From NCBI GenBank assembly GCA_030828565.1, contig JAURCF010000004.1, positions 1 through 45,066 of the forward strand: a DNA stretch of 45,066 bases, read 5' to 3'. Shown one piece after another: positions 14,722 to 20,666 of the stretch. This DNA comes from Flavobacteriaceae bacterium. GTDB lineage: Bacteria; Bacteroidota; Bacteroidia; Flavobacteriales; Flavobacteriaceae. The translations under genes were made by a program, and so were the position numbers. The notes beneath the pieces were generated by a model. That model saw only the letters and a list, made by a program, of their open reading frames with translations. It was not told the DNA's origin and ran no database searches. Numbering within the stretch: position 1 is the first letter of the stretch; every line of letters begins with the position of its first letter.

Positions 14722-14753
14722 AGTTGTATCTTTGTTATAGCAATTTTGATTTG

Positions 14754-14785
14754 CAAATTTACGACATAGAATGCCGATATACAAA
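14754..14785 (-). promoter_or_regulatory. Promoter of ahcY
   Basis: On the minus strand TTTG (14785-14782), a 20-base spacer and TAAATTTG (14761-14754) match the Bacteroidota promoter. It sits 32 bases upstream of ahcY. The upstream element lies inside the first codons of the divergent phosphopantetheinyl transferase gene. Confidence 0.75.
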
Positions 14786-15382
14786 CATTTAACTCCTAAC
14801 GACAACACAACAATTTATTTGTGGGAACTGACAGAATCGGAAAAAGAATTGCATCAGGGACTCGTTCTTACCTCCTATTGTGAAAACCGCTTGTCACAAA
14901 TGCAATCAACTATGCATCGAAAGGGATTTTTAGGAGTCAGGCAGCTTCTTAAACAGGCAGGGTATGCGCCTCACAATCTTTCGTATGATGCTATGGGAAA
15001 ACCGCATTTGTCGGATGAAAATTTCATATCCATTTCACATTCTTTTGAATTTGTCGCTGTGGCTATTAGCTCCCAAGAAGTGGGTGTTGATTTGGAAAAA
15101 GAACGTCCCAAAATTCAAACCATTGCACCCAAGTTTCTACATCCTTCCGAGTGTGCTCTACTTTCTTCGGATCGTATGCTGACTACTTCTTGGTGCATTA
15201 AAGAAGCCGCTTACAAGCTTATAGGTCAAAAAGGACTGAGTTTTTTAAACCACATTCGAATTGCCAAAAGCCAATCCGATCACCTCGTTAGCACCGTTCA
15301 AACAGCGGCTGGATTTGTAATATTAAAAAACTGGGTGTATCATTGGCCCAACTATTCTTGTGCTCTTGCATTAAAAAAATAA
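14771..15382 (+). CDS. 4'-phosphopantetheinyl transferase (Sfp type)
   Basis: Transfers phosphopantetheine from CoA to a serine of acyl or peptidyl carrier proteins. The 203-residue protein has the two superfamily signatures: [10 protein letters not shown] near 104 (Mg-binding aspartate and glutamate) and [16 protein letters not shown] near 140 (W-x2-KE-A-x2-K). The N-terminal half is less conserved, containing [11 protein letters not shown] and [16 protein letters not shown]. Only eight bases separate it from the next gene, so it may head the vitamin-salvage cluster, although its own chemistry has no obvious link to it. No clear promoter is visible on this strand. Confidence 0.9.
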
Positions 15383-15390
15383 TTTCAAAA

Positions 15391-15651
15391 ATGGATATTT
15401 CTGTTGAACTTACCCTTACTCCGCTTCAAGATCATTACGAAACACCCATTATTGATTTCATCAAAGAGCTTAGAGCCTCGGGATGTACGATTCACGAAAC
15501 ACCATTGAGCACTCAAATTTATGGTGATTTTAATACCGTGATGTCTTCTATCAACCAAGCAACTCAAAAAGCTTTTGAAAATTCAGAGCATATTATTTTA
15601 CATATGAAAATTGTCAAATCCAACCGAAGCGATTATGAACCTTTTTTTTGA
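15391..15651 (+). CDS. Thiamine-binding-like protein (MTH1187/YkoF-type, COG0011)
   Basis: An 86-residue single-domain protein beginning MDISVELTLTPLQDHYETPI and containing LSTQIYGDFNTVM, the hallmark 'MSTQv.Ge.d.vm' segment of the MTH1187/YkoF thiamine-binding superfamily, which forms ferredoxin-like dimers or tetramers. Homologues bind thiamine or related pyrimidines in the cytoplasm; the exact role is unclear. The ATG at 15391 is chosen; an in-frame start at 15343 would lie within the preceding gene. The end overlaps the following transporter gene by 17 bases, indicating co-translation. The location in front of a PnuC-family transporter and a TPP riboswitch supports a vitamin B1 connection. 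Confidence 0.8.
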   Translation: MDISVELTLTPLQDHYETPIIDFIKELRASGCTIHETPLSTQIYGDFNTVMSSINQATQKAFENSEHIILHMKIVKSNRSDYEPFF

Positions 15652-16267
15652 GACCCTTTTTGGGCAATATGCTGATTACGCATCCATCGATATTTTTTTG
15701 GAAATAACAGGAGTGATTTTTGGTTTTTTGAGCGTGTGGTACGCCAAAAAAAATCATATTTGGGTATTTCCAACAGGCTTAATTTCTACCGCTATTTTTG
15801 TGTATTTATTGTGGAAATGGGTTTTACTGGGTGATATGATGATCAATGCATATTACTTTGTAATGAGTATTTACGGGTGGTATGTGTGGACACGTAAATC
15901 GAATGGCGAATCCCTTACTCCAATAAGTCGCACTACTGCTTCTGAAAAGAAAATCGCTTGGATTATTTTTATGACAACTCTTGTATTTGTTTTTGGAGTG
16001 TATCATTTTGCTGAGAAATGGTCGTCATGGACGGCATATGTTGATACCCTAACAACAGCTATTTTCTTTGTGGGAATGTGGTTGATGGCTCGCCGAAAAA
16101 TTGAAAATTGGATTTTTTGGATCATCGGAGATATCATTTCGGTTCCGCTTTATTTATACAAAGGACTAACTTTTACTAGTTTTCAATATCTAATTTTTAC
16201 CTTTGTAGCTATTGCTGGATATTTTCTATGGAAAAAAACCTTGGACAAACCCCTTCTTCGTGCGTAA
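15635..16267 (+). CDS. pnuC: PnuC/PnuT-family vitamin transporter
   Basis: A 210-residue inner-membrane protein with about seven hydrophobic helices, matching the Pnu family: FLEITGVIFGFLSVWYAKKN, IWVFPTGLISTAIFVYLLWK, MMINAYYFVMSIYGWYVWTR (with the family GWYxW signature) and NWIFWIIGDIISVPLYLYKG. Pnu proteins move unphosphorylated vitamins by facilitated diffusion, with trapping by an intracellular kinase; PnuC takes nicotinamide riboside and PnuT takes thiamine. The adjacent NadR-like kinase favours nicotinamide riboside, whereas the thiamine-binding-like gene and TPP riboswitch on either side favour thiamine. The ATG at 15635 is preferred to a TTG at 15611. The 3' end overlaps the kinase gene by 40 bases. 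Confidence 0.9.
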   Translation: MNLFFETLFGQYADYASIDIFLEITGVIFGFLSVWYAKKNHIWVFPTGLISTAIFVYLLWKWVLLGDMMINAYYFVMSIYGWYVWTRKSNGESLTPISRTTASEKKIAWIIFMTTLVFVFGVYHFAEKWSSWTAYVDTLTTAIFFVGMWLMARRKIENWIFWIIGDIISVPLYLYKGLTFTSFQYLIFTFVAIAGYFLWKKTLDKPLLRA

Positions 16268-16806
16268 AAGTGGTGTTGTTTGGTCCTGAATCAACAGGAA
16301 AAACATCGCTTTCAAAACAATTGGCACGCTATTACGACTCGGTTTGGGTTCCTGAATTTGCCAGAGCATATCTTCAAGAAAAATGGAACAATACCAAAAC
16401 AACCTGCACCGCTGAAGACCTCTTGCCCATTGCGGAAGGACAAATAAACAATGAAAATCGTTTGGTTTCAAAAGCCAATAAAGTACTCATCTGTGACACG
16501 GATTTGTTAGAAACCAAAGTATATTCTGAAGCTTACTATATAGGTTCTTGCGATCCAATATTGGAAAAATTTGCACTTAAAAATACGTATGACATGTATT
16601 TTTTGACCTATATTGATGTGCCATGGGAAGCCGATGATTTAAGAGACAAGCCTACAGAGAGAAAAGAAATGTATGACTTTTTTGAAAATACACTAATTAA
16701 ATACAACCGGCCTTACACGGTTTTAAAAGGATCTCCCAAGGAACGGCTTCGCCAAGCCACTCAAATTATAGATGATTTAATTTTAAAAAATGCTTCCATT
16801 TACTAA
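16228..16806 (+). CDS. NadR-type P-loop kinase (ribosylnicotinamide-kinase-like), AAA_28 family
   Basis: A 192-residue cytoplasmic P-loop protein with Walker A GPESTGKTSLSK (19-30), then VPEFARAYLQEKW, the Walker-B-like LICDTDLLETKVYSE, and a lid segment DDLRDKPTERKEMYDFFE. This is the kinase half of NadR, which phosphorylates nicotinamide riboside to NMN. The nicotinamide-nucleotide adenylyltransferase half (with an HxGH motif) found N-terminally in enterobacterial NadR is absent. The kinase presumably traps the vitamin imported by the transporter; a thiamine kinase role is an alternative given the locus. The start lies 40 bases inside the upstream gene and the end overlaps the next gene by 17 bases. 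Confidence 0.85.
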   Translation: MEKNLGQTPSSCVKVVLFGPESTGKTSLSKQLARYYDSVWVPEFARAYLQEKWNNTKTTCTAEDLLPIAEGQINNENRLVSKANKVLICDTDLLETKVYSEAYYIGSCDPILEKFALKNTYDMYFLTYIDVPWEADDLRDKPTERKEMYDFFENTLIKYNRPYTVLKGSPKERLRQATQIIDDLILKNASIY

Positions 16807-18307
16807 AAACAACCTTAACGAAATCAAACAAAAAGAGTTAACTCCTGAAGATGTTGAAAACCAACTCAACATTTTTAAAAAAGGAAATCAATTCGTTTTT
16901 CTTGAATCAGCAGCTTCGATTAAAAATGGAATTTTAGTCTTGAATGATGAAGAACAATTACAGTTGCAACAAAAATACGAGGCTGCTGTTGACGACTTGA
17001 AAGTTGTAAACTTTGTACCCGCATCGGGAATGGCGACAAGAATGTTTAAGTTTTTGTATTTTTTTAAGACAACTTACAATTCAAGCAAACAGTCTCTGAA
17101 TGCATATTTGAACAACAATAAGTCCCACAAACTTCGGGAATTTATTGCAGGAATGGATAAGTTTCCTTTTTCAAAGCAAGTAGATGCAGAATTAGCCAAA
17201 AAGGGAATTCAAAGAACTCCCATCAACCAATACAGAATAGCATTTATAAATTTAGTTTTAAAACTATATGGAGAAATTCCAAAAGGGCTGGTTCCCTTTC
17301 ACAACTATCGAGGGGAAGTTGTAACAGCCTTTGAAGAGCAATTGTATGAATCGCTACATTATGCAAAATCGCGCCAATCAGTAAAACTTCATTTTACAAT
17401 CCCTCCCGAAAATTCTTTGATCATCAAGGAATTTTTGCAACCCATAGTATCTAAAATTTCTAAGCAACACAATGTTGCAGTTAAAATTGAATATTCACAC
17501 CAACATCCCAAAACCGATACGCTTGCTGTAAATCATAACAACAAGCCGATTCGAGACCATTGGGGTCAATTGGTTTTTCGAAATGGCGGACACGGATCGT
17601 TGCTTCACAACCTCAACGATTTGCATGCCGACATTGTGTTTATTAAAAACATTGACAATGTGTCTAAAAGAGATTGGCACGAAAAAAGAGCGCTTTATAA
17701 AAAAATATTGGCAGGAAAACTACTCGCTGTTCAAGAAAAATGTTTTGAGTGGCTTCATAAAATAGACGATGGATCAGCGAATCGAAAAGAATTGGAAATT
17801 TTTATCAAGGAAGAATTGAATCTTTCTTACTTGGTAGAATCCAATGATCAATTGTTTTTTGAAGCCTGTAAAAAAGCACTGCATCGACCTATTCGCGTTT
17901 GTGGAATGGTTAAAAATGAAGGAGAGCCTGGAGGAGGACCTTTTTGGGTTAGGAAGAATAATAAAAATTCTCTTCAAATTGTTGAGTCTGCTCAAGTTGA
18001 TATGAACAACAATAAACAAAAGAATATTTTCAAATCAGGGAGTCATTTTAATCCTGTTGACTTAGTTTGTGGGTTAAAAGATTACAAGGGTCAAAAATTT
18101 GATTTGACACAATTTTCCGATCCAAGCGCTTATTTAATTTCCAACAAATCGATGAGGGGAGCTTCAGTAAAAGCACTCGAACATCCCGGACTTTGGAATG
18201 GCTCTATGTCTTTGTGGACAACACTTTTTGTAGAAGTTCCCATTTTTACGTTCACTCCTGTAAAATCGTCAAACGAACTATTACGTCCAGGGCATCAAGT
18301 GTATTAA
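16790..18307 (+). CDS. DUF4301 protein, possible UDP-sugar-pyrophosphorylase-like nucleotidyltransferase
   Basis: A 505-residue soluble protein of the Bacteroidota family I recognise as DUF4301, without a proven function. Three stretches recall UDP-sugar pyrophosphorylases: NFVPASGMATRMFK near 75 (compare the G-x-GTRM nucleotide loop), EIPKGLVPFH near 165, and GGHGSLLHNLNDLHADIVFI then KNIDN near 266-290 (compare GHGG...vfv.NIDN). Conserved-looking late motifs are GEPGGGPFWV and SHFNPVDLVC. This suggests a GT-A nucleotidyltransferase fold; the reaction is not known. It overlaps the kinase gene by 17 bases and is last in the cluster, followed 25 bases later by the riboswitch promoter. Confidence 0.8.
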   Translation: MLPFTKNNLNEIKQKELTPEDVENQLNIFKKGNQFVFLESAASIKNGILVLNDEEQLQLQQKYEAAVDDLKVVNFVPASGMATRMFKFLYFFKTTYNSSKQSLNAYLNNNKSHKLREFIAGMDKFPFSKQVDAELAKKGIQRTPINQYRIAFINLVLKLYGEIPKGLVPFHNYRGEVVTAFEEQLYESLHYAKSRQSVKLHFTIPPENSLIIKEFLQPIVSKISKQHNVAVKIEYSHQHPKTDTLAVNHNNKPIRDHWGQLVFRNGGHGSLLHNLNDLHADIVFIKNIDNVSKRDWHEKRALYKKILAGKLLAVQEKCFEWLHKIDDGSANRKELEIFIKEELNLSYLVESNDQLFFEACKKALHRPIRVCGMVKNEGEPGGGPFWVRKNNKNSLQIVESAQVDMNNNKQKNIFKSGSHFNPVDLVCGLKDYKGQKFDLTQFSDPSAYLISNKSMRGASVKALEHPGLWNGSMSLWTTLFVEVPIFTFTPVKSSNELLRPGHQVY

Positions 18308-18332
18308 ACCGGGATTTTAACTTTAATTTCTT

Positions 18333-18340
18333 TATATTTG
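18333..18340 (+). promoter_or_regulatory. Promoter -7 element for the TPP-riboswitch transcript
   Basis: TATATTTG is an exact TAnnTTTG match located seven bases before the aptamer P1 strand. Transcription would therefore start at or just before the riboswitch, giving the receptor gene its own regulated transcript. Confidence 0.75.
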
Positions 18341-18347
18341 CATTGTC

Positions 18348-18424
18348 TCATAAGGGGTGCCCAACCAATCGGGCTGAGATCATACCCAATGAACCTGGGC
18401 GGATAATGCCGCCAAGGGATTTGA
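18348..18424 (+). promoter_or_regulatory. TPP (thi-box) riboswitch
   Basis: The conserved thi-box elements appear in order: GGGGTGCCC (18354-18362), CTGAGA (18374-18379), ATACCCAATGAACCTG (ending 18397), GGATAATGCC (18401-18410) and AAGGGA (18414-18419). A P1 helix can form between TCATAA (18348-18353, one bulge) and TTTGA (18420-18424). The aptamer senses thiamine pyrophosphate and precedes the TonB receptor gene by 67 bases, so the receptor should be expressed when thiamine is scarce. Confidence 0.95.
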
Positions 18425-18458
18425 AAAAGTACATTAGTAATCTTTATACAGAATAATA

Positions 18459-18494
18459 ACCCCTTTTATTTGTATTTGTTTTTTTATACAAATG
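18459..18494 (+). promoter_or_regulatory. Candidate riboswitch expression platform
   Basis: ACCCCTT (18459-18465) is complementary to AAGGGGT (18352-18358) at the 5' side of the aptamer, so it could compete with P1. Immediately after it, ATTTGTAT (18468-18475) and ATACAAAT (18486-18493) form an 8-bp hairpin whose second arm covers the first two bases of the receptor start codon (18492-18494). No classical terminator is seen, so translational control is the simpler reading. Confidence 0.5.
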
Positions 18495-20666
18495 AAACAT
18501 TCTTTTTTTCTAATAATTTTTTTGATGGCTGACTCGATGATGGCGCAATCCAAACCGACTGATTCTATTCAAAAACCAACCTTTGAATTGGAGGAAGTAA
18601 TGGTGGCAGCCCTTCGTGTCGATGCCAATTCGCCGGTAACTTTTTCCAATCTGTCCAAAAAAGAGTTGTCTCAACGAAATTTGGGGCAAGACATTCCTAT
18701 TTTAATGAAATACCTTCCAGGAGTTGTTACAACTTCTGATGCGGGAGCAGGGATTGGATATACAGGAATTCGTGTTCGAGGAAGCGATGCTACTCGCGTC
18801 AACGTAACTTTGAACGGAATTCCGCTCAACGATGCCGAATCTCATGGAGTATGGTGGGTAAATATGCCCGATTTTGCATCTTCTACAGAGAGCCTTCAAC
18901 TGCAAAGGGGAGTCGGCACATCCACCAACGGTTCCGGAGCATTTGGAGCGAGCCTCAATCTGCTTACCGATGCGGTAGCAACACTCCCTGGGGTTGAATT
19001 GTCCAATTCTTTGGGAAGTTTTAATACCCTGAAGTCCACTTTGAAATTTACAACGGGCCTGTTAAACAATCGTATTGAATTTGCCGGACGACTGTCTTCC
19101 ATTCAATCGGAGGGATACATTGATAGAGCGACTTCAGACTTAGAATCGTTTTTTCTACAAGCTTCTTATTTGAATGACAACACCTTGATTAAAGCCTTGG
19201 CTTTTGGAGGTCACGAAGTTACTTATCAGTCTTGGAATGGTATTGAAGACAAAGAAACATTACGCACCCATCGCACTTATAATTCGGCAGGAAAATATAC
19301 TGATGAGAATGACAACGTTCAATTTTATGACAATGAAGTAGATAATTACAAACAAGACCATTTTCAATTGCATTGGAATCAAAAATGGGACGCATCTTTA
19401 AGCACCAATATCGCACTACATTATACCCATGGCAGAGGATTTTATGAACAATACAAAGAAGATCAATCTTTTTCAGAATACAATTTGACTCCCATTATTG
19501 TGGGTTCGACAACCCTAAATACAACCGATTTGATTCGAAGAAAATGGTTGAAAAATGATTTTTATGGAACAACGGTTTCAATAAATTATAAAAAATCATC
19601 TGTGGATTGGACTTTAGGAAGTTCTTTGAACACCTACGAAGGAGATCATTTTGGAGAAGTAATTTGGGCACGTAATGCAGGTAACAGTGAGATTCGCAAC
19701 CGATATTACGACAATTTTGGAAACAAAAAAGAAGCCAATGTATTTTCAAAACTCGAGATTCAATTGACTAGTCAATGGCTTGGGTATTTGGATCTTCAAT
19801 ACCGTTCTTTAAATTACGAAGCCGACGCTCTTTTTGAAGGTAACAAAGTGGATGCGACTTTTGAATTCTTTAATCCCAAAGCTGGACTTACATTCAAGCA
19901 TAATAGCAATCATTATTTTTATACATCTTATGCCAGAGCGCAAAGAGAACCCAACCGAACGGATTATGAAAATGGCACTCCGCTTCCAGAAATTTTGGAT
20001 GATTTTGAATTAGGTTGGCGCTTCCAATCGGGAAGCTCTCGAGTCAATACAAATCTTTATTACATGAAATACCAAGATCAACTGGTGTTGACAGGAGCTA
20101 TAGACGATGTTGGAGCTCCTATTCGCGCCAATGTTGGAGATAGTTATCGACTGGGACTTGAAATAGATGCCCTGATTGCGCTTACTGATAAATGGGTAAT
20201 TCATCCTACAGTATCATTAAGTAAAAATAAAAACAAAGATTACATCTTTAAGCGAAACGGTAAATTAGAAACTTTGGGCGATACTCATATAGCATATTCG
20301 CCAGAAGTTGTTGTTTCCAATGCAATTCAATACCAACCCTCCGATCGATTGCAATTATCGCTTCTTACAAAATATGTTGGGGAACAATATTTGGGTAATT
20401 TAGACTCCCAAAATTCATTGTTAGAAGCCTATGCAATTAGCGATTTGAGTGTTCAATATCAGTGGAATTTTTCCTCTGTGATTGATAGTTTGGAGCTCAA
20501 TCTTTTGATCAATAATATTTTTGATGCATCCTATATTTCTAACGGATACTTTTATACTTATGACGATGACTGGTCACAACCGGGTGAAGTCAAAACTATT
20601 GAAGGTACTGGGTACTATCCGCAGGCAGGAATTCATTTTTTACTGGGAGTTCGACTAAAAATTTAA
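18492..20666 (+). CDS. TonB-dependent receptor under TPP riboswitch control (probable thiamine receptor)
   Basis: A 724-residue outer-membrane receptor. The signal peptide ends around MMA-QS (residues 18/19); a TonB-box-like LEEVMVAALRV follows. The plug spans about 45-160 (LSQRNLGQDIPILMKYLPGV, GIRVRGSDATRVNVTLNGIP, LQRGVGTSTNGSGAFGASLN) and a 22-strand-type barrel fills the rest, with FYTSYARAQREPNRTDY and a final LLGVRLKI strand. The TPP riboswitch in its leader points to thiamine or a thiamine precursor as ligand, like the OMR/OMthi receptors of other Bacteroidota. The start ATG is the first after the riboswitch. The stop interlocks with the convergent Rieske-like gene. Confidence 0.92.
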   Translation: MKHSFFLIIFLMADSMMAQSKPTDSIQKPTFELEEVMVAALRVDANSPVTFSNLSKKELSQRNLGQDIPILMKYLPGVVTTSDAGAGIGYTGIRVRGSDATRVNVTLNGIPLNDAESHGVWWVNMPDFASSTESLQLQRGVGTSTNGSGAFGASLNLLTDAVATLPGVELSNSLGSFNTLKSTLKFTTGLLNNRIEFAGRLSSIQSEGYIDRATSDLESFFLQASYLNDNTLIKALAFGGHEVTYQSWNGIEDKETLRTHRTYNSAGKYTDENDNVQFYDNEVDNYKQDHFQLHWNQKWDASLSTNIALHYTHGRGFYEQYKEDQSFSEYNLTPIIVGSTTLNTTDLIRRKWLKNDFYGTTVSINYKKSSVDWTLGSSLNTYEGDHFGEVIWARNAGNSEIRNRYYDNFGNKKEANVFSKLEIQLTSQWLGYLDLQYRSLNYEADALFEGNKVDATFEFFNPKAGLTFKHNSNHYFYTSYARAQREPNRTDYENGTPLPEILDDFELGWRFQSGSSRVNTNLYYMKYQDQLVLTGAIDDVGAPIRANVGDSYRLGLEIDALIALTDKWVIHPTVSLSKNKNKDYIFKRNGKLETLGDTHIAYSPEVVVSNAIQYQPSDRLQLSLLTKYVGEQYLGNLDSQNSLLEAYAISDLSVQYQWNFSSVIDSLELNLLINNIFDASYISNGYFYTYDDDWSQPGEVKTIEGTGYYPQAGIHFLLGVRLKI

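Follow-up and report, generated by a model that had tools for sequence, protein, structure and literature searches.

The locus described here lies in a 45,066-nucleotide stretch of the genome of a Flavobacteriaceae bacterium (assembly GCA_030828565.1, contig JAURCF010000004.1, positions 1 to 45,066 of the forward strand); this whole stretch is referred to as the window. The genes in question encode a small thiamine-binding-like protein (TBP), a PnuC-family transporter, a NadR-family kinase, a DUF4301 protein and a TonB-dependent receptor, the last preceded by a thiamine pyrophosphate (TPP) riboswitch. The features are the following:

14727..14734, + strand: TAnnTTTG promoter-like box (TATCTTTG) ahead of the operon (pattern match)
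14771..15382, + strand: 4'-phosphopantetheinyl transferase (PPTase; PF01648, E 2.3e-10)
15391..15651, + strand: TBP, a thiamine-binding/YkoF-like small protein of 86 aa (PF01910, E 1.7e-7; PF07615, E 7.4e-6)
15635..16267, + strand: PnuC-family inner membrane transporter, PnuT-like (PF04973, E 1.5e-53; trees; residues)
16228..16806, + strand: AAA_28/NadR-family kinase, predicted thiamine kinase (PF13521, E 4.9e-40; TIGR01526, E 4.7e-29)
16790..18307, + strand: DUF4301 protein with a UDP-sugar pyrophosphorylase fold (PF14134, E 7.7e-175)
18333..18340, + strand: TAnnTTTG promoter-like box (TATATTTG) ahead of the receptor gene (pattern match)
18343..18436, + strand: TPP riboswitch aptamer RF00059 (56.2 bits; gathering score, 54.3; E 1.8e-8)
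18492..20666, + strand: TonB-dependent receptor, OMthi/OMR1-like (PF00593, PF07715; receptor profile comparison)

The gene coordinates confirmed two points of a preliminary description of this DNA: the TBP, PnuC, kinase and DUF4301 genes overlap by 17, 40 and 17 bases, and the DUF4301 gene is followed by a promoter-like box, located 25 bases past its stop codon, the TPP aptamer and the receptor gene. The same description had placed the beginning of the cassette at 14771, which is the start of a fifth gene, the one encoding the PPTase; the TBP gene starts at 15391, with 8 bases between the two. The PPTase is probably a conserved neighbour and not part of the thiamine function. The domain scan of TBP used a translation from an upstream TTG start, and the protein scored above the gathering score of PF01910 (31.5 vs 24.9 bits) and below the cut-off of NCBIfam TIGR00106, the MTH1187 family (15.6 vs 54.7 bits).

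We propose, with a probability of roughly 70%, that the locus is a vitamin B1 salvage cassette with the NadR-family kinase as the predicted thiamine-trapping enzyme. According to this proposal, the receptor, under the TPP riboswitch, would carry thiamine across the outer membrane, and the PnuT-like protein would carry it across the inner membrane; the YkoF-like protein would bind thiamine, and the kinase would trap it as thiamine monophosphate (TMP), a substrate and a product suggested by its context. ThiL, encoded separately, would convert TMP to TPP, which in turn would presumably shut the receptor off via the riboswitch. The observed basis for this proposal is the gene content, its conservation, the riboswitch, the absence of other detected routes and the placement of the transporter.

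ThiL, whose substrate is TMP, is present in the host (303.9 bits; cut-off, 184.15), whose assembly comprises 1.55 Mb in 100 contigs and is 92% complete. No match to thiamine pyrophosphokinase (TPK, PF04263), ThiC (PF01964), TMP-TENI (ThiE/TenI, PF02581) or ThiN (PF10120) was found in this incomplete assembly, which leaves the host ThiL without a detected supply of TMP unless imported thiamine is phosphorylated. The aptamer in front of the receptor gene is the only TPP aptamer detected in the host genome, in which one PnuC, one DUF4301 and two AAA_28 genes were detected. The second AAA_28 gene (contig C22), which adjoins a helicase gene named recQ-like by sequence, matched the profile of the cassette kinases at no better than E 1.7e-8; it was taken as a paralogue and discarded as a second cassette kinase.

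To describe the distribution of the kinase, 128 genomes of the order were used, of which 22 belong to a symbiont family with genomes of 0.3–0.6 Mb and were set aside, leaving 106. A kinase was counted when a fetched locus of PnuC or of a TPP aptamer encoded a protein scoring at least 80 bits with the cassette profile, or by a linkage rule, and three genomes were added by hand. Among the 60 non-symbiont genomes without detected TPK, ThiE and ThiC, 56 have ThiL above its cut-off, and 51 of these 56 gap genomes carry the kinase at a locus that also includes PnuC or a TPP aptamer. When aptamers at E up to 0.001 are counted (40 of the 128 genomes have one above the Rfam cut-off), 62 of 73 kinase genomes have a TPP aptamer no more than 10 kb away from the kinase. 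This holds for 41 of the 51 kinase-bearing gap genomes, and the other ten have none at that distance (G001, G005, G008, G021, G030, G061, G063, G066, G068 and G089). The idea, raised in the preliminary description, that a NadR-like kinase had been recruited to thiamine is therefore well supported by the pathway gaps and the genomic context.

The kinase and TPK were largely complementary in the 106 genomes: 62 had only the kinase, 25 only TPK, 11 both and 8 neither (Fisher p 2e-9, a value that ignores shared descent). Families f2, f5, f7, f8, f10, f13 and f14 have the kinase only, with the exception of genome G103, and the 22 genomes of f4 have TPK only; for f4, ten loci were fetched (nine of PnuC and one of TPK), and for the rest of the family the kinase is taken as absent on the basis of the list of AAA_28 matches above the cut-off. 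In f6, 17 genomes have the kinase and four have neither gene; in f1, the kinase is present in 22 genomes (11 of them also with TPK), and two have TPK alone. TPK is present in f3, and f9, f11 and f12 have neither gene but possess ThiE. In the symbiont family, TPK was found in 21 of the 22 genomes and the kinase, by the rule used, in none; one 0.6-Mb symbiont (G060, locus L060), with TPK and no detected kinase, has kept a PPTase–PnuC pair.

The window transporter contains the NMN_transporter domain (PF04973), and in a careful tree of 49 sequences it fell into a clade of 31 (support 95/94) that includes all five PnuT-type sequences, which were assigned as PnuT by context (three beside TPK and two directly behind a TPP aptamer). 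The Escherichia coli PnuC, the solved nicotinamide riboside (NR) transporter 4qtn and three NadR-adjacent PnuC proteins lie outside this clade (86/83). Forcing the 23-sequence clade of the window together with these five NR-type sequences was rejected by the approximately unbiased (AU) test (p 0.021), the clade having been picked after viewing the tree. A first AU test, in which the window PnuC alone was held with the NR sequences, was discarded as trivial, because that constraint splits the window protein from its nearest relatives. Two sets of PnuC alignment columns, GMW and YY, were considered as marks of specificity and relegated to a secondary role because some cassettes differ in them and 4qtn also seems to have N at position 71. 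We conclude that the window transporter clusters with the PnuT type, and transport of thiamine is predicted. It has been argued, in the available text of PMC7749635, that the specificity of PnuC-like transporters can be predicted from the class of riboswitch.

Regarding the kinase, its score with TIGR01526 was 101.7 bits, compared with a cut-off of 341.15, and no nicotinamide mononucleotide (NMN) adenylyltransferase (NMNAT) domain was found in its 192 residues, which comprise the kinase part only. Because this domain is absent, the protein is a member of the NadR kinase superfamily and not NadR itself. The AlphaFold2 model of the protein (mean pLDDT 91.3) had NadR kinase domains as its nearest solved structures (Z 20.2–22.1; the best, 8x7f, 22.1), and thymidylate kinases scored at most 16.6. 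K25, the Walker A lysine, and R46 are invariant in 95 of 95 kinase sequences, and position 45 is occupied by A, S, M or L in all 90 single-domain sequences and by G in three of four bifunctional NadR proteins.

Gene neighbourhoods were compared in the best 80 of at least 577 DUF4301 loci, taken from named genomes; this sample is biased towards relatives of the host and consists mostly of Flavobacteriaceae. The order PnuC–kinase–DUF4301 was found in 67 of the 80 loci, PnuC–DUF4301 without the kinase in three and DUF4301 alone in four; two were cut near a contig end, and in four loci of Aquimarina (L092, L094, L095 and L130) DUF4301 is beside the PPTase and the stretch does not include the transporter and the kinase. 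A TBP relative was present in 45 of the 80. The arrangement AhcY (divergent)–PPTase–TBP–PnuC–kinase–(DUF4301)–TPP–receptor recurs across several families of the order, with parts missing in many loci, and the PPTase adjoins the cassette in many of them. In seven genomes (G007, G013, G020, G023, G029, G036 and G083), TBP, the kinase and the receptor are together with no PnuC between them, and the same occurs in partial form in G037 and G044. In L008, the gene of geranylgeranylglyceryl phosphate (GGGP) synthase (PcrB) separates PPTase from TBP, and frames with a similar start are found in L077 and L082. In genus g48 of f6, PPTase and the kinase form one frame of ~390–417 aa before the receptor (L078 in G093, L072 in G112, L238 in G124, L240 in G102 and L241 in G107).

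The class-wide sample comprised 38 PnuC loci from the higher-scoring places. Beside PnuC, 24 of them have a kinase without the NMNAT motif (one in a 481-aa frame), two have a full NadR and three have TPK; in L207, a weak TPK-like frame (39 bits) lies ~4 kb away. A TPP aptamer was present in four of the 14 class kinase loci scanned with Rfam (L199, L207, L209 and L215), in stretches of ~3.5–5 kb on each side.

A profile built from the cassette receptors gave 844 and 853 bits on the receptors beside two PnuT–TPK pairs (L195 and L196), compared with 401.5 bits on a receptor beside NadR. In the window, the aptamer sits between the promoter-like box and the receptor gene. The minimum-energy fold of the leader (−40.9 kcal/mol, z −3.1) pairs aptamer positions ~18353–18358 with ~18459–18464 and places a hairpin over the start codon, a predicted structure compatible with translational control of the receptor. 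A thiamine-sensing leader was reported to be expressed in Flavobacterium psychrophilum (PMC9723704, in the text available). As for the promoter-like boxes, TAnnTTTG was found 72 times in the window (58 expected), and any one of them carries little weight as evidence; when two mismatches were allowed, the full pattern TTTG-N19-TAnnTTTG was uninformative (193 matches vs 159 expected) and was discarded.

Several observations weigh against the salvage proposal. The cassette PnuC proteins of f6, f10 and f14 group apart (83/86), as the sister clade of the 31 sequences that contain PnuT, and often have other residues at the marked columns. A quick kinase tree, with weak deep support and long branches, failed to split the cassette kinases from the NadR kinase domains, and for this reason kinase phylogeny was set aside as evidence of specificity. 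Three kinases of the 51, all from f8, cluster with NadR in this tree (SH-aLRT 88) and lack a neighbouring aptamer; these may be NR kinases. The kinase operon of the window has no aptamer of its own, and since the aptamer stands before the receptor only, the link of the kinase with thiamine is by neighbourhood. In the host, gene absences are uncertain given the incomplete assembly, and the searches for thiamine routes took in neither YjbQ, described as TMP-making in the available text of PMC5613172, nor ThiK-type kinases. The kinase coexists with TPK in 11 genomes, all of genus g2, and five of the 56 gap genomes lack a linked kinase (G006, G019, G043, G073 and G103), although G019 has an unlinked one. 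Lastly, the receptor contrast is not strict, since G005 and G078 have aptamer-preceded receptors that scored only 290.5 and 346 bits with the cassette profile.

Some of these points would be expected if the locus served NR salvage, with PnuC importing NR, the kinase producing NMN, and the riboswitch and receptor being unrelated neighbours. The family names of the transporter and the kinase, the NadR fold of the latter, its lack of separation from NadR in the quick tree, the position of the aptamer and the f8 kinase–PnuC pair away from any aptamer all fit this explanation. Nevertheless, we consider it unlikely, because the kinase is close to an aptamer in most kinase genomes, including some where PnuC is elsewhere, is largely complementary to TPK, would fill the ThiL gap and lacks the NMNAT domain, and because the window PnuC is placed with PnuT. 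Moreover, G114 carries a PnuC next to a full-length NadR (L034, G114:C32) besides its own cassette (L007, G114:C39). The preliminary description had stated that firm clustering of both PnuC and the kinase with NR-specific proteins, in genomes where riboswitch and receptor are unlinked, would speak against a thiamine role. For the window, PnuC did not cluster in this way, and the tree did not separate the kinase; in f8, the kinase beside PnuC does group with NadR and the aptamer is elsewhere.

It is less probable still that the transporter and the kinase act on thiamine and NR alike, as the preliminary description had also considered. Both compounds carry a positive charge and accept phosphate at a primary alcohol group, the protein families are close, and the residues of some cassette transporters match neither group. 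However, nothing was found that points to an NR branch: three host genes have a cytidylyltransferase-like domain, two of which are CoaD and RibF and the third NadD-like by sequence, and no NadR- or NadM-type gene was seen among them. The NadD-like gene (L255, G000:C16:46383-46865) contains one in-frame TGA, which may represent an assembly error or a broken gene.

The DUF4301 protein was examined separately. Its AlphaFold2 model (mean pLDDT 92.0) resembles UDP-glucose/UDP-GlcNAc pyrophosphorylases (Z 24.1, 3.5 Å over 325 of 505 residues, 16% identity), and Foldseek matched it to UDP-sugar pyrophosphorylases with E 4.3e-11; the single phmmer match to solved sequences (E 0.5) was discarded as noise. 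The protein family conserves a glycine-rich loop with an invariant R84 and an N-x-D-N motif, which may correspond to catalytic parts of the UDP-sugar pyrophosphorylase family. In three of three f8 genomes (L257, L258 and L259), a glycosyltransferase family 3 (GT3) glycogen synthase gene directly precedes DUF4301 (called by Pfam on L257 and by like starts in the other two), which suggests a function in sugar-nucleotide supply. No thiamine genes were recognised in the inspected parts of the Balneolia locus and the three other loci with DUF4301 alone. Thus the suggestion that DUF4301 is a thiamine enzyme is doubtful, given its predicted fold and its other contexts elsewhere; a function in sugar-nucleotide formation seems no less likely than one in thiamine metabolism, and the protein may be an add-on to the cassette with no thiamine role.

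These features of DUF4301 also agree with the possibility that the kinase and DUF4301 act on another compound, such as a sugar or a nucleoside, and that the thiamine function is limited to TBP, PnuT and the receptor; the two proteins share one frame in 17 of the 80 loci. This seems very improbable, since many cassettes have the kinase and no DUF4301, a gene present in only 27 of the 128 genomes. A similarly slight chance is given to the kinase–DUF4301 pair, fused in Flavobacterium, being a NadR-like two-step enzyme, in which DUF4301 would add a nucleotide to the TMP formed and yield an adenylated or uridylated thiamine for storage or as a signal.

If the thiamine salvage proposal is correct, the naming of flavobacterial PnuC and NadR-like genes after nicotinamide riboside would need correction, and the kinase family of one vitamin would have been reused for another. 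The 56 gap genomes have no assigned enzyme for phosphorylating imported thiamine, and with this one candidate the B1 pathway would be complete in many flavobacteria. DUF4301, in turn, gains a structural family: it shares the fold of the UDPGP-family UDP-sugar pyrophosphorylases but constitutes its own Pfam family.

Among known systems, the cassette resembles OMthi (OMR1)–PnuT–Tnr3 of Bacteroides thetaiotaomicron in having a TPP riboswitch, a TonB receptor, a PnuC-family transporter and an adjacent trapping enzyme; the receptors of relatives of that system (L195 and L196) score high with the cassette profile, and the transporters are in one clade. In that bacterium, the double deletion of OMthi and pnuT, or of either one together with biosynthesis, raises the thiamine requirement, and the single deletions do not (PMC5613172). 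In a gut survey, ThiL/ThiN alone was the signature of its B1-only auxotrophs (PMC6593275), and a Baltic Sea study reported expression of omr1 and pnuC in Bacteroidetes (PMC12442306), both according to the text available. The cassette differs from the Bacteroides system in its trap, a NadR-family kinase predicted to form TMP instead of the pyrophosphokinase Tnr3/TPK that follows pnuT and forms TPP, in the addition of a YkoF-like protein and DUF4301, and in the aptamer being before the receptor only. With PnuC–NadR salvage of nicotinamide riboside it shares the transporter superfamily, the kinase fold and the adjacency of the genes, but its kinase has no NMNAT domain and has EFAR in place of the EYGR motif, and the cassette has a PnuT-type transporter placement, a TPP riboswitch and the ThiL gap. 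No description of a NadR-like thiamine kinase was recognised in the available text of the open-licence literature searched. Hence, the receptor, the PnuT-like transporter and the riboswitch are ordinary parts, and what would be new is that a large group is predicted to trap thiamine with a NadR-family kinase.

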